A DNA stretch of 64,000 bases. Source: Planctomycetota bacterium (GTDB lineage Bacteria; Planctomycetota; Phycisphaerae; Phycisphaerales; SM1A02). The position numbers and the translations under genes are program-made. Where the stretch lies: contig JACZRS010000001.1 of the NCBI GenBank assembly GCA_022574595.1, forward strand, positions 496,001-560,000, in the 5' to 3' direction. A model generated the notes under the pieces. It was not told the DNA's origin and made no database searches. It saw nothing but the letters and a program-made list of their open reading frames with translations. Within the stretch, counting starts at the first letter, position 1. Each line of letters starts with the position of its first letter. This document shows, in pieces, positions 1 to 56,475 of the stretch.

Positions 1-3000
1 GTGTTTAAGAAAAACTGTTCTTACTTGAGGCTGATCGAGCGAAACGCCTGAATCTAATGATGCGATGATCGATTCAACAAGAGTTAATTGATCTGGGTTC
101 GCGGTTACTATTATTGAATTGCTCGATGGTTCTGCGGTAATGGTTGCGGGTTGTGTGCCTGGTTCATTAAGCGACTTAGCTGCAAGTGCGCTTTGCACCG
201 CGGCTGCAACATCTGCGGCTTGTGCTTTAGTTAAATTAAAAATACGCACATCAACTGTACCGCTATTTGAACGTGGCTGATCCAGTTCAGCAATAAATTG
301 TCTTGCCATTGGCAAGAGCTCAGTTGGCGCACTGATTAGCAAGCGATTTGCAATTGCATCAGCTGTAACAGTTGGTTGAGCGATTGAAATACCTGCTCTA
401 GCAATCGCTTGTAACTGCTGTGGCCAACGACTGCGATCTCGGAGTATGGGGCTAAGCGCTTGTGCAACAACTGATGCTTGTGTGTGAGCAAGCGTTATTA
501 CCTGCAAATCAATTTGCGGGGGCTTTAGTGCATTGCGATCCCATTCCGCTAATAGTGTCAAAGCGTCAGCAACTTCCTCATCCGTTCCTGCTACAACCAC
601 AGCACCACTTTTAGGATCAGTGATAAGTTTTAATGTGTTGCGTCTGCCCATAGCGCGGCCGGTATCTACTACCTGTCTAACAATCTGCGCCAAAGCAATA
701 GGATCCGCATCAGTCGGGGTGTAAGTTTCAACTATTCGCTTGGCGGATTCATCTGGTTGATCGAGTTGAGTAATAAGCGTTTCCGCAAGTGCCACAGTTC
801 GCTGTGGACCTGAGACAATCAGGCTGTTGGTTCGTTCATCCGCTTCAACGCGTACCTTTGGGGTCAGATCTATCTGCCCTCGACTTCGGCGAATCCGCTC
901 GAGCAGGATGCGCGGATCGGTCTCTTGTTGATCGGTCAGCAAGCGTTCTACAACAGGAGCTATCTGTATAGCCTCTGCGTATTTTAATTTGAATGTTCGC
1001 GCATCTATTGCATCCATCGAAGGCCGAGCATCAAGTGGCTCGATAAGCAGTTCAACTTCAGCCAAATCAGCTTCGAGACCAACAAGGATCAGAGCGTTTG
1101 CTCCGGGCGCGGTTAAGATTTTTACATCGATGGGATCGCCTGTTGCTTTGGAAATCAGGCTGCGTATAGCTTGTGATAGAGCTTGACTAACTTCACGCGC
1201 GTCTGCGAAGGTTAGAGGTTTGATGCGCACGATGGGATCGCCAAGCAATGCTGTACCGCTATCGAGCTGTCTTATAGTTTCTTCCGCAACGGGCATGAGT
1301 GCTTCTGGTGCGGAGATGATAAGGGTATTGGTCTTGCGATCGGCTGTAACATTTAATAGTGATTCGATATTGCTACCAGCTTCGGGTACGTCTTCGGCAA
1401 TACGGGCCATGAGTATTTCGCGCAGCATTGGAGCAAGAGTATCCGCACGTGCATTTTGAAGTTTGAAGAACTTAAGCGAAGTCGCTGGCCCAGCGCGACG
1501 AATATCAAGATCCTTCAGCAGTTTTTCAACGGTTGGGAAAATATCAGATGGGCCTGACACGATTAAGGTTTTACTAACTGGTTCTGTGCTGATATTGATA
1601 GGCACACGTCGATCGCTGCCAATCGAACCTAACTGTGCGGATTTTGCCAAGTCGCGTAAAGTTTTAGCCAGGCCGTTTAAGTCCGCAAAGATGACCTGGT
1701 AGGTTCTAACCTCGATCTCCTCAACGATCTTTTGGCGATCAAGTTGTTCAACGAGCTTCTCAAACCCAGCCATGCGCTGACTTGGAGCGTCAACTATTAG
1801 AGAGTTGGTTTGCGGATCAGCGCGCACAACGACTTCACGCGGTTGTTGTAGGTCAGGGCGTGGCCGACCCCTTGAATCACGAGGCATGGGCGGCTGGGGA
1901 TACATCTCATCAATCGTCTTTGCGAGTTCTTCCGCCCGCGCAACCTTAAGTGGGAAAATCTGAATTTCGCGCCCTTCAGTATCCATGCGATCCGCGTTAT
2001 TTAGATCCTCAACTATTGCCTGAATCTGTGGCAGCATGTCTGGATGCGCAGCAATAATCAGCGTATTGGTTTGTGGATCGGCTGCGATGTTTACAGGTTT
2101 TTCCTGTTTTTCTTCCGCGGGGCGTTGGTTGTACTGACGCATTAAGGCAGATGCGAGATTAACCGCATCGGCATTACGAAGTTGCAGGATTCGTAGCGGA
2201 GGCATTTCCTGGTCGGCAGGTTTATCCAGGCTTTGGATTAACGCACGAATTATCTCGTGTTGTTCACGTCGGGCTGCGATTAGTACTGAGTTAGTTCGCT
2301 CGATAGCGAAGAGGATTGGCTTCGGACCGGTTTGACCACCTGTTGTTGCTAATTCGCTTTCAGTTAAGTCTGTTACAAACGTTACTACTTCTGTAGCGTC
2401 AACATATTCCAGTGTTATCAAGCGTACTTCAGGTGGCGGGCCGATACTTTGTTGGAGTTGATTGAAAATTCCAGTAAAGCGGAGCATAGCTTCATCTTCT
2501 GCAACTACTAATAGTGAAGAGTTTTCGTGATCGACTTCTATGCTTACTTCGGTAGCGTCGGGAATGTCAGCAGTTTGTTCTTTGTAAAGCCTCAGCGCGC
2601 GATCAGCTAATTCTTGTGGATCAGCGCCGGTTACTTCAATAACTCGAAGTGATCGTTTTATTGGAATAGCCTGGAGATCGCGCAGCATTAGTTCTGTTTT
2701 TTCAAATGTAACGTGATCGCCCGCAACTATGAGGGTTTTACTAATTGGTTCAGCCTGGAAGCTTACAGCTACAGGCTTTGAGCCATCGCTAGGTTGCTCG
2801 TTCATTACGTTTTGTCGCGCAAGCTCAGTTAGTGTGCGAGCAATTTGTGCTGGATCACCGCGCTCTATGTGGTAAGTTCGAAGCTCAGCTGTTGGTGGAA
2901 GTTCTACGCGATCCAGTTGTTGAACTAACGCTTCAAATTGTGCGCGACGTTCAGATGGCGCTTCAATAATTAAAGTATTAGTTGCAGGCTCCGCAGTAAC

Positions 3001-6000
3001 GTATACTTCCTTGGGCTCTCTAAGGTGAGGTAAGGGGCGGCCACGTCTATCGACAGGCATAGGCGGCTGGGGATATAGCTTGTCCATGGCTTTGGCTAGA
3101 TCTGCTGCCTTGGCAAGTTTTAAGGGGAAAATCATGGTTTCGCGCTCTGCCTGCGCATCACCTGATCGATTCACGCTATCAACAAATTCCTTAATTTCAT
3201 CATATAGCTCTTGATGAGTAGTAACGATCAACGTGTTTGTAGCAGAATCCGTATCAATAGTTACAGGCATTTCACGGCGTTGCTCGGTGGGACGCGCATC
3301 GTAACGCTTGCGCAGCATGCTGGCTAATTGAACTGCATCTGCTGCACGGACTTGTATTAATCGAAGCGGTGGGAGGTCGGTAAGTTCAAATGTATCTAAC
3401 TGCTTAACGTACCTTTCAACCATTTGCAATTGCGCTGCTTCACCAACTACATACAAACTATTGGTGCGTTCAACCAGCGCGATTGTTGGCGGAGGTACTG
3501 TGCGCGATGGATCAACCGGAGCAGTCGAGGCGATAAGTTCTTCTAATGGAACAATTACATCAGACGCTTTGGCGCTGCGAAGTTCGATTAAGCGGCCGGT
3601 TCGTGCTGGGGGCAGAAGTTTGCGCGCTTCTGACAAAGATTGCTCATATGTTCGAACTGATGCACTATTACCTGAAACAAGCAAGTTGCCTGTTAATGCA
3701 TCGTAATCAACAGTCGGTGAGGGCATTTCATCGGGGTCAAAACCTTCAGTTCGCCGCGTGAAAATGTAATCCGCTTTTTGCATTAACTGCTGCGGGTCTG
3801 AGCCACTAATTGCAATAACACGGAATTGATAATCTTCGGGGCTGCGTTCATCAAGAGTTGCAATCAACGAATCGATAGTCGCAAACTGCTCTGGAACGGC
3901 TGTTACGATTAATAAATCAAGTTGATCAACTGCCTCGAAAGTTGGCGGGGTGTACTTTGATCCATCGCGTGGCTGAAGCATTTGCTTTGATAGCGAATTC
4001 AGCGGGGAAATGATCTTGCTGGGCGTTGCGTTGGTAACATCGTATTGCCTGGTTTCTTGATCAACAACCGTATTAGATTCGATCAAGCGCATGGTATTTG
4101 AGAAGCGATCCAAGGCTGCGGTTGAACCAATAAGCGTAAGCTCACGTGATTGCTCATCGTAATCAACACTGAGTTTCCATTGGGGATGATCAAAATTGAC
4201 CTCCTCAGCATAAATCTCTTGAGTGCGTGCAAGCAATTCGATTGGATTTTTTGCAGTCAATCTTAAAAGACGAACCAGGTGATCGGCTTTGGTGGATTTA
4301 TCGAGTTGTTGCACTAAACGATCTAAAATTTGAAACTGCTGAGGTTCGGCTATTATGTACAGGCTGTTAGTGTGGTCGATAACTTGTATTGTTGGATCGG
4401 CAATAGTGCGCGATGGATCGATTTGAGTAGTTTTCGCAAAAAGATCCAGTAATGGTTTGACGATTGATTCAGCGTTAGCAGTTCTCAGCTGAATAATGCG
4501 CCCGGTTCTTGCGGGTGGAAGCAAACGCCTCGCTTCTGATATTGATTGTTCGTAAATTTTAACGGAATCAATTGTTCCTGAAACCAACAGATTGCCAGTC
4601 AGCGAATCAAACTCGACAGATGGCGCTATTTGATATTGCGGATCTAATCCTTCAACGCGTTTTTGGAATACGAAGTTGGCTTTATCCATTAGCTGCTGCG
4701 GATTTATTCCACCTACTGGAATTACGCGGAATTGATAATCATTTGGGCTGCGTTTATCCAGTGTTGTAATTAACGAGTCGAGAGTTGCGAATTGGCTTGG
4801 CAATGCAGTTACAATTACTTGATTGAGTTGATCAATCGCTTCGATGGTTGGTTCAATAAAGTGCATCCCATCACGAGGCGTTAGAAGTTGGCTCGCAAGA
4901 GGTTTTAACGAATTAACCAAGCTGCTTGGCGAGATATTCGCTATGTCGTATTGTCGGGTTTGGCGCTCAACAACAGTATTAGACTCGATCATTACCAGAG
5001 CGCTGGCAAATCGATCGATAGCTGCGGATGAACCGATCAATGTTAAGACGCGTGATGTGATGTCAAGATCGGAGCGCAGTTGCCACTGTGGGTGATCGGT
5101 ATCAACTTGCTCATCATAAAGGGATCGCGCGCGGGTTAAAGTTGCTGCGGGATCGGGAGTTGTTAGTGTAACTAACCTTACTTGTCGATCTATCTTGATC
5201 GGCGTATCGAGTACGGGTAGCAAAGCTTTAACAGCAGCAACATCTTCGATAAGGCCTGAGACTATTAGTGATTTACCATCAGGGCCCGGCACTAGCTTGG
5301 TAGTTGCAGCTTGACGCCCATTTAGCAAACTGCGGACAGCATCAGCAAGAGCATTGGGATCTGCATGTGAAAGAGGAATCGCAGCAATACTACGTTGTGG
5401 CTGCGAAGTTCTGGTAATGCCCCCATCAATTTCTGACAGCAGCGCTTCCGCTTCTTCAATCGCGCCGTCTGTGCCAACGATGGTAATTTTACCAACTTCA
5501 TCAAGCGGGATAACAGTCGGCTTCTCCTCTTTTTTTAGCGGTTCAAAGAGCAGATTAAGTTTGGATACTGCTTGAGCAGGTGATAGTTGCGCCAGGGCAA
5601 ACGTGCGTACAGTTCGGCCGTTGGCACCGGGCGCACTGGGAACATCTATTAGCGCAATAGTCTCTTTCAACTTGTCAATGCGCATTTGAAGGCCTTTAGC
5701 GATGATGGTGTTTGTTCGCGCATCAAAAGAGATGTTTAGGCCTTGCATGGTTTCTTGAGTTGTCTTAGTTGTTTTACCCTTGGGTCCGGTCACATATTTT
5801 TCGATGCGTTTTGAAAGCAACGCTTTAAGCGGAACCATAATCGCTTCAGCTTTGGCGTGTTTGAGTTTTATTATTTCAACGGTGTCTTCAGGCCCTTCGC
5901 CATCAAGTACTTCAATGATTGAGAGCAGGCGTTGGATTTGCGCTTTTGTTTCAGTGATAACAATTGAGTTCTGCTCTTCCATGGCAATTACTTTGCCATA

Positions 6001-46768: not shown

Positions 46769-47617
46769 ATGCGTATGGCTGAGCAATCAAAGTATCACGC
46801 CAATGTCTTTCATGTATCGGACTTGGACGATCCCAGACTCGATGATTATCGCGATATCAAAGATCGTGATTTGCTAGGCCGAGATGGCTACCCAGGCTTA
46901 TTTGTTGGCGAGCAACCTCTCATCGTTGAGAAGTTACTAGCCAAGCCCGGTGCTACTAAATCAGTCTTACTTATGCCTCAGTGGTTGGATCGTCTCGCGC
47001 CTCTGGCTGGAGATGATGTGCCGATTTATGTCGCAACATCAGAGCTGTTAGAGAAAGTGGCTGGCTATCGAGTCCACCGAGGCGCATTGGCAATGGGCTA
47101 TCGCGACAAAATTGAGAGATCAGATCTAAGCTCGGTGTTAAGCAACGATCAGCAGCCTTTGACACTTCTGCTTTGCCAGGATATTACCAACATCGATAAT
47201 ATTGGTTTGCTATTTCGAAATGCAGCTGCGTTCGGAGTCGATGGCGTGCTGCTAAGTAGTAGCTGCCACGATCCCCTTTATAGAAAGTCCCTTAGAGTCG
47301 CAATAGGACACACTCTAAACGTGCCATTTGCACGTAGCAGCGATTGGCTTGGCGACTTGGAGCAGCTTAAAAATAAATGGGATATCACATTGATAGCAGC
47401 GGCAACCTCTAAGCAAGCCGTCGAGCTTGATCGCATAGAAAGGCCAAAACGAGTTGGCCTAGTTCTGGGTTCAGAATACTCCGGCTTACCTACTGATACG
47501 CTTGAAATGTGCGATCATATTGCCAAGGTTCCGATGGCGGACGGCGTGGATTCATTGAACGTAGCCGTCGCCGCCGCAGTTTGCCTGCATCGCTTCAGCT
47601 CCGCCATGCGTATGTAA
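46769..47617 (+). CDS. TrmH/SpoU-family RNA 2'-O-methyltransferase
   Basis: The 282-residue protein has an N-terminal L30e-like substrate domain (YPGLFVGEQPLIVEKLLAKP) and the SPOUT knot domain with all three motifs: NIDNIGLLFRNAAAFGVDGV, RVGLVLGSEYSGLP, and VPMADGVDSLNVAVAAAVCL. It methylates the 2'-OH of a ribose in rRNA or tRNA; the exact target cannot be told. It stands alone, divergent from the phosphate genes, and is the last gene of the low-G+C part of the window. Confidence 0.93.
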   Translation: MRMAEQSKYHANVFHVSDLDDPRLDDYRDIKDRDLLGRDGYPGLFVGEQPLIVEKLLAKPGATKSVLLMPQWLDRLAPLAGDDVPIYVATSELLEKVAGYRVHRGALAMGYRDKIERSDLSSVLSNDQQPLTLLLCQDITNIDNIGLLFRNAAAFGVDGVLLSSSCHDPLYRKSLRVAIGHTLNVPFARSSDWLGDLEQLKNKWDITLIAAATSKQAVELDRIERPKRVGLVLGSEYSGLPTDTLEMCDHIAKVPMADGVDSLNVAVAAAVCLHRFSSAMRM

Positions 47618-47671: not shown

Positions 47672-47905
47672 TTACGGCTCCAGATGCTTCTGGAAGTAGC
47701 GGCGAACGGCGCCACGAAAGTAGGTCCGTGCCGCTCCCGGAACACCGACAAACCCGTGGGTCTACTCCAGAAACAGCCTCAGGTCATAAGGTTTTCCGGC
47801 TTGAATCAGGCGTCTAGCATCTTCATAATGTTGTAGAACTCGCTGTCGTTGTTCGGGGATAGACTCCGTCACCAAGGGCTGCAACTGTGGACGGAGGGCC
47901 ACTGT
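47672..47905 (-). pseudogene. Broken C-terminal end of an S9 peptidase relative
   Basis: On the minus strand the frame ending at TAA 47674-47672 reads GAARTYFRGAVRRYFQKHLE then P, and before an in-frame TAG (47764-47762) it reads EDARRLIQAGKPYDLRLFLE. These align with the end of the complete S9 peptidase next door (FIGAGKSYDLLVLPGQGHD ... EVIRRYFQEHLQP). The TAG falls just before the position of the catalytic histidine (THGF) and may have arisen from CAG. No start or catalytic serine is left. It abuts the 3' end of the PD40 lipoprotein gene. Confidence 0.75.
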
Positions 47906-47915
47906 GGCGGCACCT

Positions 47916-48842
47916 TCACCAGTCCGGGTGCACTGCATATTCTTCGCTGTTGGTCAGTCGCCGCATGTTCGCTCCGTCCGCATCCATTACGTAAATCTCA
48001 CTGTGCCCTGCATCGCGGTGGGAATGGAAGGCGATGCTTGTCCCAAGCGGCGACCACACTGGACGCGCATCGACTCCGTCGTAATGCGTGAGGCGCTGGA
48101 CATTCGATCCGTCGACGTCCATTACGTAAATGTCCCAGTTATCGCTGTGCGTCGAGTCGAAAACGAATCTCGTGCCGTCGGGAGACCAACAAGCCTGGTA
48201 GTACACCTTCGAGTCGCGCGTGACTTGGCGAACGGTACCTGAACTTATGTCCAACACGTAGATATCCCACTTCCATTCGTCATCGTCGTCTTTCTTGCCA
48301 GCGGAGAAAACGAGTTTCGTTCCATCCGGCGACCAGTCGGGCCGAGCGACATACCGGTCCGTGTATTGAAGCAGACAACGGACGTTTGAGCCGTCAAATC
48401 CCATCACGCGCAGGCTAAAGATCTTCCGCTCGTCACCGCTTTGGGAAATGAACGCGATTTGCTTTCCGTCCGGCGACCAAGCCGGTGTTTTCTCTTTGTC
48501 CGGCGTGTGTGTGAGTCTTTCGACAGCCTGACCGTCGGCGCTCATCACGTAAATTTCCGAGTTCCCCTCTCGATCGGATGCGAAGGCAATACGGGTGCCC
48601 TCCGGGGACAATGCCGGTTGCCAGCTCCCGGTTCCTCCTTTGGTTGTTGTCAGTCGTCTCAATCCGCGCCCATCCGTGTCCATATCGAAAATCTCTTCCT
48701 TTCCGTTCCAATCGCTGACGAACACAATACGACCCTTCACTTGATTCATACGCCAGTCACCTTCTGGCCGGATAGGCCCCGAGCAGGCGGTGACGCCGAG
48801 CACAAAGAAAGATATGATCAGTCCAAAACGATTATGAGCCAC
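47916..48842 (-). CDS. PD40 (TolB-like) beta-propeller lipoprotein
   Basis: The 308-residue protein begins with a lipoprotein signal (FGLIISFFVLGVTACSG) and has about six WD40-like PD40 repeats, each with the form PxWSPDGTxIAFxSxRDGxxEIYVMDxDG (for example VRCLLQYTDRYVARPDWSPD and DIYVMDVDGSNVQRLTHYDG). It resembles the TolB propeller without its N-terminal domain and is probably a periplasmic binding protein. I chose GTG 48842 because AAGGAG lies eight bases before it and the signal peptide follows; the open frame extends upstream to 49160, but that part overlaps the peptidase gene and lacks a signal. Confidence 0.82.
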   Translation of the reverse strand: MAHNRFGLIISFFVLGVTACSGPIRPEGDWRMNQVKGRIVFVSDWNGKEEIFDMDTDGRGLRRLTTTKGGTGSWQPALSPEGTRIAFASDREGNSEIYVMSADGQAVERLTHTPDKEKTPAWSPDGKQIAFISQSGDERKIFSLRVMGFDGSNVRCLLQYTDRYVARPDWSPDGTKLVFSAGKKDDDDEWKWDIYVLDISSGTVRQVTRDSKVYYQACWSPDGTRFVFDSTHSDNWDIYVMDVDGSNVQRLTHYDGVDARPVWSPLGTSIAFHSHRDAGHSEIYVMDADGANMRRLTNSEEYAVHPDW

Positions 48843-48862
48843 TGTGCCAACTCCTTGCCCCG

Positions 48863-49015
48863 CTATGAAAGCCCGCCAATAGTCATTGTACCCCGACCCA
48901 AAATCCAAGCTTGCCACACTGACTGTGGCTCGCCAGAGCGAGCCAGGGCTGGGGCTGCCACGAGACCCCCGACGAGAAAAACAACTGGGCAACCTGTTAG
49001 TCCATATATCTTCAT
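48863..49015 (-). pseudogene. 5' remnant of an S9 peptidase relative (signal peptide only)
   Basis: A 50-codon minus-strand frame reads MKIYGLTGCPVVFLVGGLVA then APALARSGEP and stops at TAG after about 20 unrelated residues. Its start matches the complete peptidase (MKMFGLRRQHVALFVAGLVA then FAPLAGAGEP) in length and pattern. It begins eight bases after that gene's stop. It is best explained as the first part of a tandem copy whose body was lost before the PD40 gene took its place. Confidence 0.65.
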
Positions 49016-49023
49016 CTTCACCT

Positions 49024-51291
49024 TTATGGTTGCAGATGCTCCTGGAAGTAGCGGCGAATGACTTCAAGCTCATAGGCCATGCTTTCCTCTGAAACGTCGT
49101 GGCCCTGTCCAGGCAGGACGAGTAGGTCGTAGGATTTCCCCGCCCCAATAAACGCCTCAATCATTCTTACTGTGTGGGAAAAGGGAACGTTGACATCGCT
49201 CGTGCCATGCGTGAGTAGCAGTTTTCCTTTGAGACGGTCAGCCAAACGGAGATTCGATGCGTAGGTGTACGCCTCTCCGTTCTTCTCGATTGGGCCCATT
49301 GCCGACTCGTAAGCCCAATGCGCTGCAACGTCCGTTATCGAGGCACCGGCGACACCAACGTGATAAACATCGGGCGCCAACAACATGCCGCGGATGGCCA
49401 TGTAACCGCCGTGCGAATATCCGAAGAGTCCCACCCGCCCAAGATCCATGTAGGGTCGTGTTTCGGCTAACTGTTTAAGTGTCGCCACGTGGTCGGGAAT
49501 TTCGTGGCGTCCTAGTTGTGCAAAACTCGTGCTCCGAGAAAACTCCCGTCCCCGTCCATCGGTCCCTCGGTTATCCACAAGGAAAACGATGAATCCCAAC
49601 TGAGCAAATGCCCGTGCCCACCAACCCCTGTTGAAGCTATGCGGCACGATGCTCAAACCCCCGTAGATTTGATCGATCACTGGATACTTCTTTTGGGGGT
49701 CGAAATCGTGCGGTTTGAAGAGCACGCCATAAAGATCGGTTGTCCCATCGGCAGCTTTGACCACGAATTCCTCGGGTGGCCTCCACTTCAGTTCGTTAAC
49801 GAGCGCGTCGATCTTGGCCTTGGACAGGACTCGAAGCAGCGTGCCGTCTGCCCGCCTCGACTCTACTACGGGCGGCCGATCCACGTTCGAGTGTGTGTCG
49901 AGGAAAAACTCCGTTGACGGTGCGAACGCTATCTCGTGCTGACCGGTTCCTTCCGTCAATCGAGTGAAGTTGTTGCCTTGCAAGTCTATACGGTACAGAT
50001 GCGTATCGTAGAGTCGTTTTTCCGCACGGGCTGTGAAGTAAATCCAGCCGCGCTCTTCGTCCACTGCAACCACTTCCATCACCGGGAAGGTTCCCTTGGT
50101 GAGTCGCCGGATCAGCTTCCCAGTCATGTCATATAGATAAAGGTGATACCACCCGTCGCGCTGCGACATCCAGATGAATTGGTCGCCATTGTTCAGCGGA
50201 GTGAAAATTTTCTCGCCCTGTCCTAGCGCGAACTCGGGATGGGATTCGGTGAGGATGAGTCTCGCCCGGCCCGTCGCAGGGTCGGCTCCCATCAAGTCCA
50301 TCCGTTCCCAATAGCGATCGACCCGATAGAACAGCAACTCCGATCCATCACTCCGCCAGCCAACGATAAGAGCGTACTGGTTCGGCCCCAATCCGGTCTC
50401 GACACGCGTTAGCTTTTTGGAAAGGATGTCCAAGATGAACAGTTCGGTCTGCGGTATGGGCTCGCCGGCCCGACTATAGGAGATCCATAGCACTTCTTCC
50501 GTCGGACTGAGGTAGTCAACGATCGGAATCTTCGGCATCTTGCGGTAGTCCCCCTTTTTGACCGCCAGCTTGGAGCTATCCGGCGACCACGAAGCCCATT
50601 TGCTGTAGGTTCGTACCGGGACGTCGCGCCATTCGTACCCTTCTTTGCCGTCGATCGTAAGCTGAACTCTTTCGCCATCGGCCGTGGAACGTAGCCAAAC
50701 ATTGCGATCTTTTAAGAAGGCGAACCAGCGCCCATCCGGTGAACGTATCTCCATCAGGTCCAAGTCGGGATACCCGGCGCCTTCCCGTGTGATCTGCGGA
50801 ACAAGTCTGCGTTGCTCCTCCTCGGACACGGTCGGAGCAGGCGTGACTGCGTAGGAGTCAAGCTGGAGGATGAACACCTGGTCCTCCACGGTGAAACTCA
50901 CCGCCGTCTCGCGCTCATCTACGAAAGTGAACTCTTCAAAGGGGAGTCCGTTGTTGGGCGGTTCATCTCCGAGCAAAGCAGCAAGCGCTTGACGCAGACG
51001 CGCGGTGTCGAACAGGGGCGTCTTCGTGTTGGCCTTTGGATCCACCTGGTAGATGATGGTGTTCTCAGGTGCTCCCTCGGCGTACCAAAAGCTGCTGCCG
51101 TCGGCCATCCAGTGCGGCTCGATCGAGCCGCCTTTCACATATGATGGGAACTCGAGGTAGCGATAGTACATCGCCTCGCGCTCGGTTTGCCCCGGCTCGC
51201 CAGCACCAGCTAACGGCGCGAAAGCCACGAGACCGGCGACGAACAAAGCAACGTGTTGACGTCTGAGTCCAAACATTTTCATCTCTATCAT
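49024..51291 (-). CDS. Secreted S9 family (DPP IV-like) serine peptidase
   Basis: The 755-residue exopeptidase has a signal peptide (VALFVAGLVAFAPLAGAGEP), an eight-bladed propeller of about residues 70-480, and a C-terminal alpha/beta-hydrolase domain. The catalytic triad is visible: Ser626 in GLFGYSHGGYM, Asp699 in THGTSDVNV, and His731 in LPGQGHDVS. DPP IV-type enzymes remove dipeptides, often after proline. It is probably periplasmic or exported. The TAA of an older, truncated copy overlaps its first ATG (TAATG). Comparison with the 5' remnant downstream favours a start at ATG 51282 (MKMFGL) over 51291. Confidence 0.92.
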   Translation of the reverse strand: MIEMKMFGLRRQHVALFVAGLVAFAPLAGAGEPGQTEREAMYYRYLEFPSYVKGGSIEPHWMADGSSFWYAEGAPENTIIYQVDPKANTKTPLFDTARLRQALAALLGDEPPNNGLPFEEFTFVDERETAVSFTVEDQVFILQLDSYAVTPAPTVSEEEQRRLVPQITREGAGYPDLDLMEIRSPDGRWFAFLKDRNVWLRSTADGERVQLTIDGKEGYEWRDVPVRTYSKWASWSPDSSKLAVKKGDYRKMPKIPIVDYLSPTEEVLWISYSRAGEPIPQTELFILDILSKKLTRVETGLGPNQYALIVGWRSDGSELLFYRVDRYWERMDLMGADPATGRARLILTESHPEFALGQGEKIFTPLNNGDQFIWMSQRDGWYHLYLYDMTGKLIRRLTKGTFPVMEVVAVDEERGWIYFTARAEKRLYDTHLYRIDLQGNNFTRLTEGTGQHEIAFAPSTEFFLDTHSNVDRPPVVESRRADGTLLRVLSKAKIDALVNELKWRPPEEFVVKAADGTTDLYGVLFKPHDFDPQKKYPVIDQIYGGLSIVPHSFNRGWWARAFAQLGFIVFLVDNRGTDGRGREFSRSTSFAQLGRHEIPDHVATLKQLAETRPYMDLGRVGLFGYSHGGYMAIRGMLLAPDVYHVGVAGASITDVAAHWAYESAMGPIEKNGEAYTYASNLRLADRLKGKLLLTHGTSDVNVPFSHTVRMIEAFIGAGKSYDLLVLPGQGHDVSEESMAYELEVIRRYFQEHLQP

Positions 51292-51330
51292 TATGGTTTC
51301 AGGTGTTCTTGCAAGTACCGGCGAGAGAGA
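51291..51330 (-). pseudogene. Short C-terminal remnant of an S9 peptidase
   Basis: Just before the complete peptidase, the minus strand encodes LSRRYLQEHLKP and then TAA (51293-51291). This matches the last residues of the complete gene (VIRRYFQEHLQP) and of the broken copy at 47.7 kb. The match stops exactly where the hairpin element at 51331 begins. The TAA shares its last base with the ATG of the next peptidase. Confidence 0.65.
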
Positions 51331-51387
51331 GGGGATAAGTCTAATTGTGTAATTGGACTTATCCCCCTTTCTGTCCCGCGCGGGACA
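51331..51387. repeat. Double hairpin element at a truncation point
   Basis: GGGGATAAGTC (51331-51341) and GACTTATCCCC (51356-51366) form a perfect 11-base stem around 14 bases that can pair further. It is followed after five bases by the perfect 16-base palindrome TGTCCCGCGCGGGACA (51372-51387). The element abuts the truncated peptidase end and sits between divergent genes. This is the form of a REP-like or insertion-sequence end repeat. No transposase is nearby. Confidence 0.7.
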
Positions 51388-51423
51388 ATTGATTTTCTGC
51401 CTCAGCGGGCCGATTATGTGCGT

Positions 51424-52635
51424 ATGCCCCTAGACAAACCCATAGGCCCAACCGACCCGCAGGCCCGCTTAAGATCCATCGATGCCGTCAGAGGCGTTGC
51501 ACTGTTCGGGGTGTTGTTGGTCAATATGTATAACTTTGGCGCCTATTCTCCTGAATGGACCGGTCTTATCGACCGCATGTCCGTCACGGCGATGCACTCC
51601 GTGTTCGAGACTAAATCCTGGCGCCTCTTCTCCTTCCTGTTTGGGTTTGGATTTGCCTTGCAAATGATCAAGGCGGAGACACAGGCCGCTGGGTCATTGT
51701 GGTTCTACATCCGACGATTGGTGATCCTATTCGTCATCGGAATGGCGCACGCCTTGTTTTACGACGGGGAAATACTGATGAAGTATGCGGCGCTTGGCAT
51801 GATTCTGGTCGTGTTCCGAAAGATGCAAAGACGTGCGCTTCTGGTTTTGGCTCTTATTCTCCTCGCTGCGTTCCCAGTGGGAAACATGATCGTATCTCTA
51901 ACCGACGATGAATCTGCTGTGCAGTCGGAGGAGAACCCCTCACTCGCCGAACGAAGAGAGGGGCACCCCTACCTGGGTTCTCTTACAGACGTATTCGAGG
52001 CCAACGCTCCGGCCGTTCCGCCGCGCATCTGGTCGGGTCTGCATAACCCCGAATCAAGCTTAGCTGTTTTCGCAATGTTTTTGCTCGGTCTGTACGTGGG
52101 TCGAAGCCGGATTATTCACGATATTCCGCAACATCTTCCGTTTATCCGAAAGGTGTTCGGCTGGGGAATAGGCATTGGGGTCACGAGCGCAATTGCTGAA
52201 TGGTTGCTGGGGCAATATTCTGGATATGCGGTGTTCCGCGAAAACACTGCCTGCATCGGGACCCAACTTCTCGGCGATATTCTGTTTGCCTATGGCTCCA
52301 CAGCTCTTGCGTTGGGTTACGCCGCAGCAATCGTTCTCCTGGCCCAGGGTCCCAGATGGAGTGCGGTCCTGCGGCCTCTGGAAGATCTCGGGAAGATGGC
52401 ACTGACGGTCTATCTGTCCGGAACGCTCATGTTTACGATGCTCTTTTACGGTTATGGATTCGGACAAATATTCCTAATCGGGCCAGCTGGAACCACCGCA
52501 TATGCCGTCCTCTTCTTCGTGATACAGTTGCTCATCTGCTCCTGGTGGCTTCGACGATTCCGCTTTGGGCCGATGGAATGGGCTTGGCGGAGTTTGACTT
52601 ATTGGAAGGTTCAGACTCTACGTCTTTCCGAATAG
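51424..52635 (+). CDS. DUF418-family membrane protein
   Basis: The 403-residue protein begins RLRSIDAVRGVALFGVLLVN, the conserved start of the YeiB/DUF418 family. It has about eight membrane segments and the C-terminal DUF418 motif FGPMEWAWRSLTY. Some of these proteins may move or acylate small molecules; function is unknown. ATG 51424 (MPLDKPIGPTD) is the first sensible start. The open frame continues upstream to 51253, but that part crosses the peptidase 5' end and the hairpin element. It is convergent with the next gene with a 58-base gap. Confidence 0.85.
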   Translation: MPLDKPIGPTDPQARLRSIDAVRGVALFGVLLVNMYNFGAYSPEWTGLIDRMSVTAMHSVFETKSWRLFSFLFGFGFALQMIKAETQAAGSLWFYIRRLVILFVIGMAHALFYDGEILMKYAALGMILVVFRKMQRRALLVLALILLAAFPVGNMIVSLTDDESAVQSEENPSLAERREGHPYLGSLTDVFEANAPAVPPRIWSGLHNPESSLAVFAMFLLGLYVGRSRIIHDIPQHLPFIRKVFGWGIGIGVTSAIAEWLLGQYSGYAVFRENTACIGTQLLGDILFAYGSTALALGYAAAIVLLAQGPRWSAVLRPLEDLGKMALTVYLSGTLMFTMLFYGYGFGQIFLIGPAGTTAYAVLFFVIQLLICSWWLRRFRFGPMEWAWRSLTYWKVQTLRLSE

Positions 52636-52693
52636 TCGCCCAAGTTCCCACTGGCCTAAAGATGTTCATCTCCTTTACTCGCTTTAGCTTTGG

Positions 52694-55027
52694 CTACGGC
52701 CTCTGTTTCGTGAAGCGGAAGTTCCTGACTCCGTACCAGTTGAAGAGCATGGCAGAGACCCGGTTGTTGGAATCCCGCGTAAAGCGGATGGTATACCCCA
52801 TGCTGAATACATCGCACAGGAGCGGCTGCAGGCTGGCCGCTTCACGCCTTGGTCGTTTCAGCACGAGCTTGTCGTCCTGCAAGGCCACTTGATACGTGGC
52901 TTCGACCTCTTCGCTAACGTAGGTTCCCACATACGCACCCAGCTCCGTGCGCGTGGGCGTGACCGGATCAACGGGCTCGAAGAATCGGAACTTTGTGCCG
53001 CCGAACCTTTCGGCGAGCCGCGGTCTGGCTCCGGGCGTGGCGGCTTCAAAGCGAACCTCGGCCCGTGGCCGTCCGACCAACCGGAAGCGGTTCTCGCTCA
53101 GTGGCTTCATTTCCCAACGGCCATACGTCAAGAACTTGCGCAGCTTCCCCTCTTTCAAGACAATCTTTCGGATCCAGTAATTCTCCCGGTTCCAATACAG
53201 TCCCGCTTTACTGGCAAGCTCTTCCTCAGAAAGTTCAACGGTTGTTCCGTCCGTCAGATCAGAGGTAGGGTCTTTGAGTTCCTTCGCCAGGTAAATGTCG
53301 GCGACCCTGCGCACGAGCTCGCCGGGAAGCGTCGTCGTGTTGCAGAGGCAGGCGATGGAAAAACGCTGCTCGGGGAAACGGATCAAGTGGGCCCGGTAGC
53401 CGGCCTGGCTGCCGCCGTGCTCCACGATGGGCCGCCCTCGGTAGGTGGCGATGATGAGCCCGAACGCGTCGTCAGCCATCACCGTGCCGTCGTTGAGCTT
53501 GCCAGGCTGGTGGAGCTGCTCGATCAAAGCGCTGCCGCCAACGCGCCCGTCGTAGAAATTCTGGTCCCAACGTGCGAGATCTTCCACTGTAGTGAGGAGA
53601 CCGGTGTGCCCGACCGTGTCGGACGTGGGCATGCTCAGCCGGAACGTGTCGCCCTTTGTGGGAACGTATCCATAGGCCAGGTTCTTTACCACCGTGGCGC
53701 GGTCGGTGCGGAAGAATGAGTTCTTCATGCCGAGCGGCTGGAAGAGGTTGGCACTGGTGAATTCGCGAAAGGATTGGCCGCTGACACGCGTCACGATCTG
53801 CGCCAGCAGGAAGTAGTTCGTATTGGAGTATTCGTACTTCTCACCCGGTCGAAAATTCAATTCCCTTTGCCGAAACACGAGCCCGAGCACATTCTCCTCG
53901 GTGACGTGATCGAGCCCGATGCGCCAGCCGGCCAGGTCCAGCAACGCCGTTTGACTGCGCAGGCCGCTCGTGTGGTGAATCAGGTGGCGAAGAGTGATGG
54001 GGGTGCCAAAGTCCGGCAATTCGGGAATATATTTGCGCACCTCATCATCCAACGAGAGCTTGCCCTCCTGAGCCAGCAGGGCGATGGCAGCTGCAGTGAA
54101 CTGTTTGGACACAGAGGCAATGTTGAATACGGTGGAGGGCGTGATGGGCACATCATGGTCGAGATTGGCCATACCGTAGCCGCGCTTGTAAACGAGACGG
54201 CCATCTTTGATGACAGCGAGAGCGCAACCGGGAGAATCGGGCTTATCCCACCTCTCGAAAATCTTGTCCACGCGGGCGGTGATACCGACAGCCTCGGCTG
54301 CTTGTTCAATCTCTCGAGCAGGCGTTGGGCGCGGTCTTCCCAAACTAATGACCAGCGATTTCGGGAGCTCTCGATATTTACCCAAGGGCGGCAACCCGAC
54401 TTCAGCTCGACGCTCTTCGACATGTTCAAGGTCCTCGATGGGAAAGTACCTGCGTACGCCGTCAATGACGCCATACTGTGTCCCGTAAACTTGCGGCTTC
54501 CCCTCCCTGGTGCGTACGCGATCTGTCAGATACGCCACGTGGACCGCCGAGACCTCGTCGCGCTTCAGCGCCGCTTTCATCAAATCGAGACATCTGCGCT
54601 GAAACTCGGTGTCATGGTCGGCATGCATCGCCAGTAACCATGTGGCCCACGCGCCGTCCTTGCCGACCATGCTTCGTGTCGGCCAGCCGAACTCATCGAC
54701 GATCAGCTTCATCCGAGCGGTATTGCGAACGTCTATTCTTGATTCCTCTTCGAGCAACCCGGGCGTCTCACCCTCCGCGTTGATTCGCCCGCGCACGGCT
54801 TGATCTTTTTCGGCCATGGTGAGAAGCTCACTCCGGAGCGCCGAGTGCGAGCAGGGAAACGCCTCGCTATCCGAAGCAGGACGGCTCTCTCCCGCTTGCG
54901 CCGCTGTGAGTCCGGACATCACCTCGCACCCCGATTCCGTCGGCTCGTCACCGTGAGCCAAAGGTGCGAACGCCACGAGGGCGGCAACAAGAAAGACAAC
55001 CATTATTCCTTTTGCCCTAACAATCAT
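52694..55027 (-). CDS. DUF6624 / serine beta-lactamase-like fusion protein
   Basis: The 777-residue exported protein has a signal peptide (VVFLVAALVAFAPLAHGDEP) and two enzyme-like parts. Residues about 60-200 match DUF6624: LIVDEFGWPTRSMVGKDGAW, ATWLLAMHADHDTEF, YLTDRVRTREGKPQVYGTQY. Residues about 255-600 are a class C beta-lactamase/penicillin-binding fold with SxxK at 305-308 (ASVSKQ) and the tyrosine motif YSN at 400-402. A strand-rich C-terminal section follows. This group includes esterases and D-aminopeptidases; real beta-lactam cleavage is not implied. GGAGG lies eight bases before the ATG. Its signal peptide strongly resembles those of the peptidase copies in this island. Confidence 0.9.
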   Translation of the reverse strand: MIVRAKGIMVVFLVAALVAFAPLAHGDEPTESGCEVMSGLTAAQAGESRPASDSEAFPCSHSALRSELLTMAEKDQAVRGRINAEGETPGLLEEESRIDVRNTARMKLIVDEFGWPTRSMVGKDGAWATWLLAMHADHDTEFQRRCLDLMKAALKRDEVSAVHVAYLTDRVRTREGKPQVYGTQYGVIDGVRRYFPIEDLEHVEERRAEVGLPPLGKYRELPKSLVISLGRPRPTPAREIEQAAEAVGITARVDKIFERWDKPDSPGCALAVIKDGRLVYKRGYGMANLDHDVPITPSTVFNIASVSKQFTAAAIALLAQEGKLSLDDEVRKYIPELPDFGTPITLRHLIHHTSGLRSQTALLDLAGWRIGLDHVTEENVLGLVFRQRELNFRPGEKYEYSNTNYFLLAQIVTRVSGQSFREFTSANLFQPLGMKNSFFRTDRATVVKNLAYGYVPTKGDTFRLSMPTSDTVGHTGLLTTVEDLARWDQNFYDGRVGGSALIEQLHQPGKLNDGTVMADDAFGLIIATYRGRPIVEHGGSQAGYRAHLIRFPEQRFSIACLCNTTTLPGELVRRVADIYLAKELKDPTSDLTDGTTVELSEEELASKAGLYWNRENYWIRKIVLKEGKLRKFLTYGRWEMKPLSENRFRLVGRPRAEVRFEAATPGARPRLAERFGGTKFRFFEPVDPVTPTRTELGAYVGTYVSEEVEATYQVALQDDKLVLKRPRREAASLQPLLCDVFSMGYTIRFTRDSNNRVSAMLFNWYGVRNFRFTKQRP

Positions 55028-55059
55028 CCTTACTTCCTCCGTCTTCTCTCCTCCGCCCT

Positions 55060-55131
55060 TCAGTTTTCATCGTTGAACTGGGGCAGGAAGTTCTCCATCA
55101 CCCAGACTTCGTTTTGGACGCTGAACCCGGT
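55060..55131 (-). pseudogene. Short C-terminal remnant of a probable PD40-type protein
   Basis: The minus strand ends a frame with TGFSVQNEVWVMENFLPQFN then DEN and TGA (55062-55060). The EVWVMENFLP form is the typical last strand of several exported propeller proteins with PD40 repeats. The frame upstream changes at once to high-G+C, low-complexity sequence and overlaps the galK 5' region, so only about 23 codons look real. It lies 32 bases before the DUF6624 fusion gene, at the right border of the island. Confidence 0.4.
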
Positions 55132-55266
55132 GCTCAAGCCAACGCACCAGGCTGGGTCCCCTCCACCACCCGCGAGACATCCGCATCGTACCGTCAGCCG
55201 GGCCGTGGACGACCGCATCGTGCCCGCGGCATTGACAGCGGGCCAATAGATCGGTTCCCTGTGGGT

Positions 55267-56475
55267 GTGCAAGCTGGAACCGGGCAACCTGATCCGCGAA
55301 CGATTGATCGCCAACTCTCCGAGGCGGTTGAGGCGTTTACGAGTCGCTTCGGCCGGCCGCCGCGCTTCGGGGCCGCCGCGCCGGGGCGGGTCAATCTCAT
55401 CGGCGAGCACACCGACTACAACAACGGCTTCGTCCTGCCCATGGCCATCGACCGCTGGGCGATCGTCGTTGCCGATCTCACCCCCGCTAATAACTCCACC
55501 CTCTGGGCGATCGACCTCGATCAAACCGTTCAATGCGACTTCGCCGACCTGCGCTCGCCCATCGCCGGGAGCTTCGCCAACTATCTACTGGGTGTCGTCG
55601 ATCAATTCGCGAAGCGCGGCGACTCGATCCCGAATCTCGATCTAGCGCTCACGAGCACGGTGCCGATCGGGGCGGGGCTGGCCAGTAGCGCGGCGATCGA
55701 AGTGGCGACGGCGACCTTGTTGGCGGAAGTGGTGGGCGCGAAACTCGATCCGATCGAGAAGGCGTTGCTATGCCAACGAGCCGAGCACACGTTCCCGGGC
55801 ACGCCTTGCGGCATCATGGACATGCTCATCGCCACCCTCGCGCAGCCGAACCACGCGCTATTGATTGATTGTCAATCCAATACAGCCGAGCCGGTTCCTT
55901 TGCCGCCGGCCGACTCTGTAACTGTGCTGATCGCCAACACGAACGTGCACCATGACCTCGCTGCCAGCGCCTATGCGGCTCGTCGAGAAAGCTGCCGGAG
56001 CGCTGCTGCGAAGCTCGGTCTGGCCACATTACGCGAGGCATCGGCCACAATGGGGATAAGTCCGATTTTCTCGGGACGGGGGCTCACCGATCGTGAATCC
56101 CGCTGTGCCGAGCACGTCGTGTGCGAGAACGAGCGCGTGCTGTCGGCGGCGGCGGCACTGGGCCGCGGCGATCTGGAGACGGTCGGCGGGTTGATGTTCG
56201 ACAGCCATGCGTCATTGCGCGATCTGTACGATGTAAGTTGCCCGGAGCTGGACCTACTAGTTGAGGTCGCAGCTCAGATGCGCAGCGACGGCTCCGTGTT
56301 CGGGGCCCGCATGACCGGCGGCGGGTTTGGAGGTTGCGCGGTGCTCTTCTGCCGAGCCGACGCGGTCACGACCGTGTCGGATGCACTGGCCGATCGCTTC
56401 TCGTCCCGGTTCACGCGCCCCGCTACGCTGTTCACGGTCGCTGCCGTTGGCGCGTCGGGCACATTTACCCTCTGA
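55267..56475 (+). CDS. galK: Galactokinase
   Basis: The enzyme (about 402 residues from GTG 55267) phosphorylates galactose at C1 in the Leloir pathway. All GHMP-kinase motifs are present: the galactokinase signature GRVNLIGEHTDYNNGFVLPM, the ATP loop VPIGAGLASSAAIEVATATL, and the C-terminal MTGGGFGGCAVLF. The open frame reaches back to 55114, but family starts lie just before EAFTSRFGRPPRF, so a late start (GTG 55267 or 55261) is likely. No good ribosome site was seen. No other gal genes are adjacent. The gene is clearly richer in G+C than the genes left of 47 kb. Confidence 0.92.
   Translation: MQAGTGQPDPRTIDRQLSEAVEAFTSRFGRPPRFGAAAPGRVNLIGEHTDYNNGFVLPMAIDRWAIVVADLTPANNSTLWAIDLDQTVQCDFADLRSPIAGSFANYLLGVVDQFAKRGDSIPNLDLALTSTVPIGAGLASSAAIEVATATLLAEVVGAKLDPIEKALLCQRAEHTFPGTPCGIMDMLIATLAQPNHALLIDCQSNTAEPVPLPPADSVTVLIANTNVHHDLAASAYAARRESCRSAAAKLGLATLREASATMGISPIFSGRGLTDRESRCAEHVVCENERVLSAAAALGRGDLETVGGLMFDSHASLRDLYDVSCPELDLLVEVAAQMRSDGSVFGARMTGGGFGGCAVLFCRADAVTTVSDALADRFSSRFTRPATLFTVAAVGASGTFTL

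Follow-up and report, generated by a model that had tools for sequence, protein, structure and literature searches.

The 64,000 nt stretch analysed here (positions 496,001 to 560,000 of contig JACZRS010000001.1, assembly GCA_022574595.1, from an uncultured Planctomycetota bacterium; referred to as the window) contains one intact gene for a secreted S9 peptidase and the broken ends of relatives, flanked by two housekeeping genes, a galK-like gene and spoU. The data suggest that this is probably a recombination-scarred peptidase locus. The ancestral state, taken from two family members, would be one secreted DPP IV-like S9 gene between galK and spoU. A block of ~7.2 kb (47852-55053) would have replaced that gene, and it holds one S9 gene predicted to work, broken ends of others and unrelated genes. 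All S9 pieces in the window, the gene and the fragments, are on the minus strand, as adjacent homologues in one orientation. The source genome (handle G000) consists of 4.09 Mb in 31 contigs and the window is on contig C23.

The intact gene, which we call copy B (49024-51291, minus strand), encodes a protein of 755 aa in which a DPPIV_N propeller (Pfam score 200.1 bits, cut-off 22) is followed by a Peptidase_S9 hydrolase domain (127.9 bits, cut-off 22.6). The motifs GYSHGG, HGTSD and GQGHD begin at residues 624, 695 and 728 and we take them to represent the Ser/Asp/His triad. Nothing unusual was found in the protein, which, judging by its family, most likely trims peptides outside the cytoplasm like DPP IV-type enzymes.

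Three fragments around copy B match the ends of S9 genes in the expected positions. Their significance was assessed with 1000 dinucleotide shuffles per reference gene end, and the best score of each fragment was reached by 0/1000 shuffles, ruling out chance similarity. The references included the family genomes G104 and G108 and the locus L039, from a metagenome-assembled genome (MAG) titled Proteobacteria. The upstream fragment is the C-terminal tail of a lost S9 copy (51291-51324, minus strand, RRYLQEHLKP). Its homology spans 51292-51324, with 27/33 nt identical to copy B's own end and 28/33 to both L039 copy 1 and G104 (0/1000 shuffles against each of the three). The stop codon of the tail overlaps the ATG of copy B (TAATG) and the same junction is present between copy 1 and copy 2 of L039. 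Downstream of copy B is the signal-peptide head of another lost copy (48927-49017, minus strand, start codon 49013-49015). It is identical to the head of copy B in 65/92 columns and corresponds to the head of L039 copy 2, against whose start 0/1000 shuffles were as good. The third fragment (47672-47851, minus strand) comes from an older S9 gene, whose C-terminal end it preserves in degenerate form, and is identical to G104 in 124/188 columns and to G108 copy 4 in 114/169 (0/1000 shuffles each). It contains an in-frame stop plus a frame change, the resemblance switching frame in a three-frame reading made by eye, and this piece beside spoU is a pseudogene end.

An earlier, sequence-only reading of this DNA had interpreted the fragments as the remains of a tandem array, and it had placed all three at the right gene ends and on the same strand as the complete gene. 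Its 12-residue tail (51291-51330) is real. The signal-peptide start is also real but had been extended to 48863, beyond the limit of homology at 48927; similarly, the C-terminal end does have its stop but had been drawn as far as 47905, whereas homology ends at 47851. It is unlikely that the fragments derive from a single lost copy, given the correspondence of the head to L039 copy 2 and of the spoU-side end to the G104 and G108 copies, which that end matches over a greater length than it does the intact gene. The proposal of at least two further copies holds as a lower limit, and the number behind the broken ends is probably three. The pieces point to three kinds of copy: one of copy-1 type that left its tail upstream, one of copy-2 type whose head lies downstream, and an older one, like those of G104 and G108, whose end adjoins spoU.

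Arrays of this kind are kept in relatives, which further supports the array interpretation. Contig G108:C129, from the same family, has a cut S9 gene followed by complete copies at 1011-3293 and 3309-5600, each of which begins 15 nt after the preceding stop codon (ORF coordinates). In L039, the stop codon of S9 copy 1 (82%) overlaps the start of a DUF6624-S9 fusion, which continues beyond the contig end. Compared by eye, the final ~127 nt of L039 and the first ~127 nt of G108:C129 (L074) are the same with one difference, a script having found no exact overlap. This may mean that the two are one four-copy array split over two contigs. One of these contigs may be mis-binned, the first coming from the 'Proteobacteria' MAG and the second from a family member. 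Among the 181 family genomes, five have an S9 match at E <=1e-100; the lineage, at >=60% identity, is present in G000, G104, G107 and G108, and G011 has a 38% relative. Samples of 400 order genomes and 392 phylum genomes gave three matches each at E <=1e-130, with the source genome itself included each time.

Copy B carries a copy-2-type signal-peptide head (51191-51291, minus strand) on a copy-1-type body, and its DNA alignments to the single-copy locus L040 and to contig C30 of the source genome (both described below) begin at 51190. Positions 48927-51185 of the window form a single alignment with L039 copy 1 plus the copy 2 head, with 85.9% identity over 2259 columns. The tail-plus-head junction is present twice, as a direct repeat of 131 nt (48927-49057 and 51194-51324, 71%). 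The junctions before and after copy B are 72% and 73% identical to the L039 copy 1/copy 2 junction and 69% identical to each other. If copies 1 and 2 were misaligned and exchanged near their starts, the expected product would be copy 1, a hybrid and copy 2 in that order. On these alignments, copy B is a hybrid gene of the kind that unequal crossover produces, the 5' part of one paralogue being joined to the remainder of another.

The S9 bodies and what lies upstream of them have different relatives. In the tree, the bodies of the window, C30, L040 and L039 copy 1 form one clade (support 100/100). Counted from the REAMY codon, the window, C30 and L040 genes reach 94-95% identity over nt 300-1240, but only 53-57% in the 100 nt that precede the codon (random sequence, 45%). 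S9 bodies with 92-94% DNA identity are thus found in three settings, each with a different signal peptide. Over the first 300 nt of the body, the window differs from C30 at 51/294 sites in comparison with 51/1197 further on (p 9e-13), and from G104 at 45/294 in comparison with 441/1185 (p 6e-14); these p values are a guide only because sites within a gene are not independent. The third positions give 33/98 versus 32/399 for C30 and 33/98 versus 233/395 for G104. GC content at third codon positions is 0.635-0.717 in six S9 genes, 0.38-0.44 in four neighbouring genes on C30 and 0.48 in the spoU gene of the window, and this contrast suggests that the S9 genes arrived recently in low-GC surroundings. 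We consider it possible, if doubtful, that the S9 genes are exchangeable cassettes, in which the body moves between species and lands behind a resident signal peptide. Recombination would use two conserved stretches as joints, the initial ~300 nt of the body and the terminal ~35 nt of the gene, and the galK-spoU interval would be a hot spot for such swaps. The clearest case for this would be L040, whose leader (89%) and head (92%) resemble those of G104, whereas its body is window-like (94%) and only 61% identical to the later body of G104.

The single-gene state is found in L040 (Planctomycetota bacterium B23T1B5, for which contig number, coordinates and scores are identical under the handles G062 and G107) and in G104. 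Both have one S9 gene between galK and spoU, followed by a transporter gene and phoU as in the window. The alignment of L040 to the window extends on the galK side up to 55054, ~35 nt before the L040 S9 start codon, and resumes at 47710 on the spoU side. There are therefore ~7.2 kb in the window where L040 has one S9 gene. The DNA after the degenerate spoU-side end is 85% and 81% identical over 72 nt to the DNA after the S9 ends of L040 and G104, respectively, and this suggests that the spoU-side end is the end of the old resident gene. The DNA downstream of copy B is 37-42% identical to these three downstream regions. On C30, an old-type head adjoins galK (L050:16335-16490; 112/143 columns identical to L040 and 114/147 to G104). 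It is followed by a beta-lactamase-like gene and then by a second S9 copy, which is cut by the contig end and has 91% protein identity to the window copy. The spoU gene of G104 (L075:7626-8504) matches in three pieces, not all in one frame, and may be frame-shifted or misassembled.

Taken together, the data point to a history in four steps. The fragments and their relatives, the synteny of the single-gene loci, the arrays elsewhere and the hybrid head/body are observed, whereas the order and mechanism of the steps are our reconstruction. A two-gene tandem (S9 copy 1 and a copy with the 'MKMFGL' head, as in L039) would have arrived by interspecies transfer. Exchange near the gene starts would then have put the copy-2 head on the copy-1 body, so that the intact gene is preceded by a copy-1 tail and followed by a copy-2 head. 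Non-homologous insertion or deletion would have swapped most of the outer copies for the DUF418 gene, the TolB-like gene and other DNA; because these two genes lie at the breaks, the loss of most of copies 1 and 2 needs events other than homologous exchange. Lastly, the older resident S9 gene would have left its degenerate end beside spoU.

Several results weigh against this history. The order of events is undated, and the full arrangement of the window is found in none of the four neighbourhoods inspected (L039, L040/G107, G104 and G108). The upstream tail, at 33 nt, is the weakest piece, and against one of its four references, the end of G108 copy 4, its score was reached by 1/1000 shuffles. 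The body clade was not rejected when the approximately unbiased (AU) test was applied to the first 300 nt (p 0.32), so the claim of a mosaic rests on the pairwise-distance contrasts. Finally, the two sides of the array differ both in GC and in closeness to L040, and the halves may come from two organisms.

This last point raises the question of whether the contig is chimeric, with a spoU side (lower GC, native) and a galK side (GC ~0.61, from a relative of G107) joined by the assembler inside a shared S9 gene. The remains would then be real but would come from two loci, each in a different organism. We regard the evidence on this as evenly poised. A chimera is compatible with the history proposed above and the confidence placed in the two does not sum to 1. 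In steps of 2 kb, the part left of 46 kb has a GC of mostly 0.42-0.50, but 0.53 at 26-29 kb; GC is ~0.55 in the array, 0.59-0.64 from 53 kb on and 0.58-0.64 beyond the window to the end of the contig 10 kb further (C23:570291). The overall climb across the array is from ~0.47 to ~0.61. Consistent with a join, this GC step is accompanied by a difference in DNA identity to L040, which is 91% on the right side of the array and 73% on the left. A second leuS-folC-LOG-galK set of low GC is present on C30, which ends inside an S9 copy, and its four genes have 57-81% protein identity to the window's versions. Positions C23:551054-565579 are 90% identical to G107:C69, and over its last 8 kb C23 has 89-91% identity to G107 and, for the most part, 65-69% to C30. 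Additionally, the first 20 kb of C17 (L117, G000:C17:1-20000) are mostly G107-like (88-94%) with a GC of 0.59-0.65 that then falls abruptly to 0.48, and the window and L040 S9 genes share exact runs of up to 119 nt.

However, the final 31 nt of C30 do not occur in the window, whereas a simple graph break within shared sequence should have produced an overlap. No clear switch point that would locate a join is visible along the gene when the window is compared with C30 and L040, and the junctions on both sides of copy B are of one kind. The other contigs sampled, with the exception of the start of C17, have a GC of 0.42-0.56, so that GC alone is not decisive, and a recent import of a long segment or a mixed strain population would look the same. 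If the contig is chimeric, the proposed steps describe two loci, and the remains on the galK side and those on the spoU side come from separate genomes. Neither the fragments nor the relatives' arrays would be called into question. We also observed that the last 0.7 kb of the G107-like stretch of C17 has a counterpart with 82% identity close to the end of contig C27.

It is unlikely, in our view, that there was no array here and that a resident S9 gene was split by foreign DNA carrying its own S9 gene and stray ends. The old-type remains, a head next to galK on C30 and an end next to spoU, would fit one resident gene cut in two if C30 and the left side of the window were neighbours. However, the tail and head around copy B match the L039 copy 1/copy 2 junction, which argues that the tandem was already in the incoming DNA.

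A simple tandem array shrunk by unequal crossing-over alone is very improbable: the tail-plus-head junction is present twice and relatives have arrays, but the orphan head and tails adjoin unrelated genes (TolB-like and DUF418), which is not a product of homologous exchange, and the spoU-side end resembles the G104 and G108 copies more closely than it does the intact gene. The sequence-only reading had held that the missing copies were deleted through unequal exchange, and this part of it is not supported, with unrelated genes standing where the lost parts stood. Unequal exchange removes whole units, leaves intact genes and a hybrid, and brings no foreign DNA to the breaks. It is therefore a poor fit to the losses and a good one to the origin of the surviving hybrid.

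Two further candidates were rejected. A tRNA integration site at the locus was ruled out because no tRNA was found in the window between 43000 and 64000. Plasmid carriage of the S9 gene was ruled out because there is no near relative of the copy B protein among the plasmid records, of which 55 match at E <=1e-50, all with <60% identity (33-34% for the eight listed). Another S9 gene of the source genome, L005 (G000:C18:110138-110767), is reported with one in-frame TAG.

The locus is bounded on its conserved left flank by the gene for the SpoU-family RNA methylase (46769-47617, plus strand) and on its conserved right flank by the galK-like gene (55114-56475, plus strand), on a side that has a GC near 0.61 and is 91% DNA-identical to L040. 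SpoU alone was named by a family search; the names galK, LOG, folC, leuS, PNaS and phoU are those we presume for the flanking genes from their sequence. Between the orphan head and the orphan end is a gene for a TolB-like beta-propeller lipoprotein with PD40 repeats (47916-48842, minus strand, start codon chosen by eye). It ends after HPDW, immediately before the degenerate S9 end, and has probably been cut short. The DUF418 protein gene (51424-52635, plus strand) lies inside the block on the opposite strand, its start chosen by eye within the ORF 51253-52635. Next to it is a gene with a DUF6624 part and a beta-lactamase-like part (52694-55027, minus strand). The DUF6624 part shares 87% DNA identity with its counterpart in the DUF6624-S9 fusion of L039, so that the same N-terminal part has a beta-lactamase-like partner in the window and an S9 partner in L039:12244-14244. 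From the alignment, neighbours in the array would have swapped a domain.

An inverted repeat (51331-51366) and a palindrome (51372-51387) lie right where the upstream tail breaks off, and a mobile repeat was considered as a candidate there. With <=1 mismatch allowed, the arm of the inverted repeat has seven hits in the source genome (two of them its own arms), nine in G107 and none in G108 or G104, and a control pattern has none in any of the four. The exact arm is found in only three of 139 loci, all covering this same place. One arm resembles a low-copy dispersed repeat of the source genome, with a variant of it in G107. It is likely to be such a repeat, with a putative role in the break.

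The locus is ordinary in kind and informative in detail, as a scarred tandem array that bears signs of repeated recombination. Viewed next to each other, the single gene, the intact array of a relative and the scarred locus show how a planctomycete family of secreted peptidases can be amplified, hybridised and broken. Near-identical bodies across genera, with GC unlike that of their neighbours on one contig, point to exchange between lineages. There is also a warning here, in that shared genes such as S9 are spots where metagenome contigs can be mis-joined and the window may be an example.

Copy B has the domain order common to bacterial S9/DPP IV-type peptidases (PF00930 and PF00326; PDB 2z3w, 2ecf and 5yp1). 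Matches to these three structures start at residues 161-184 and extend to 749-755 (E ~1e-72), residues 1-160 lying outside them. Passages of a study of the prolyl oligopeptidase family describe many bacterial genomes as having several members, with expansion mainly by horizontal transfer; its main text uses neither 'tandem' nor 'recombination', and head/body reshuffling is absent from those passages (PMC4522959). Literature searches for such S9 arrays found no paper, a result that holds for those searches only. The shuffling of domains and signal peptides between tandem paralogues by recombination is a general phenomenon, and the locus resembles it in having near-identical bodies with swapped 5' parts. 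Unlike such shuffling in general, what is seen here, in a set of only eight sequences, runs across genera and across contigs of differing GC.

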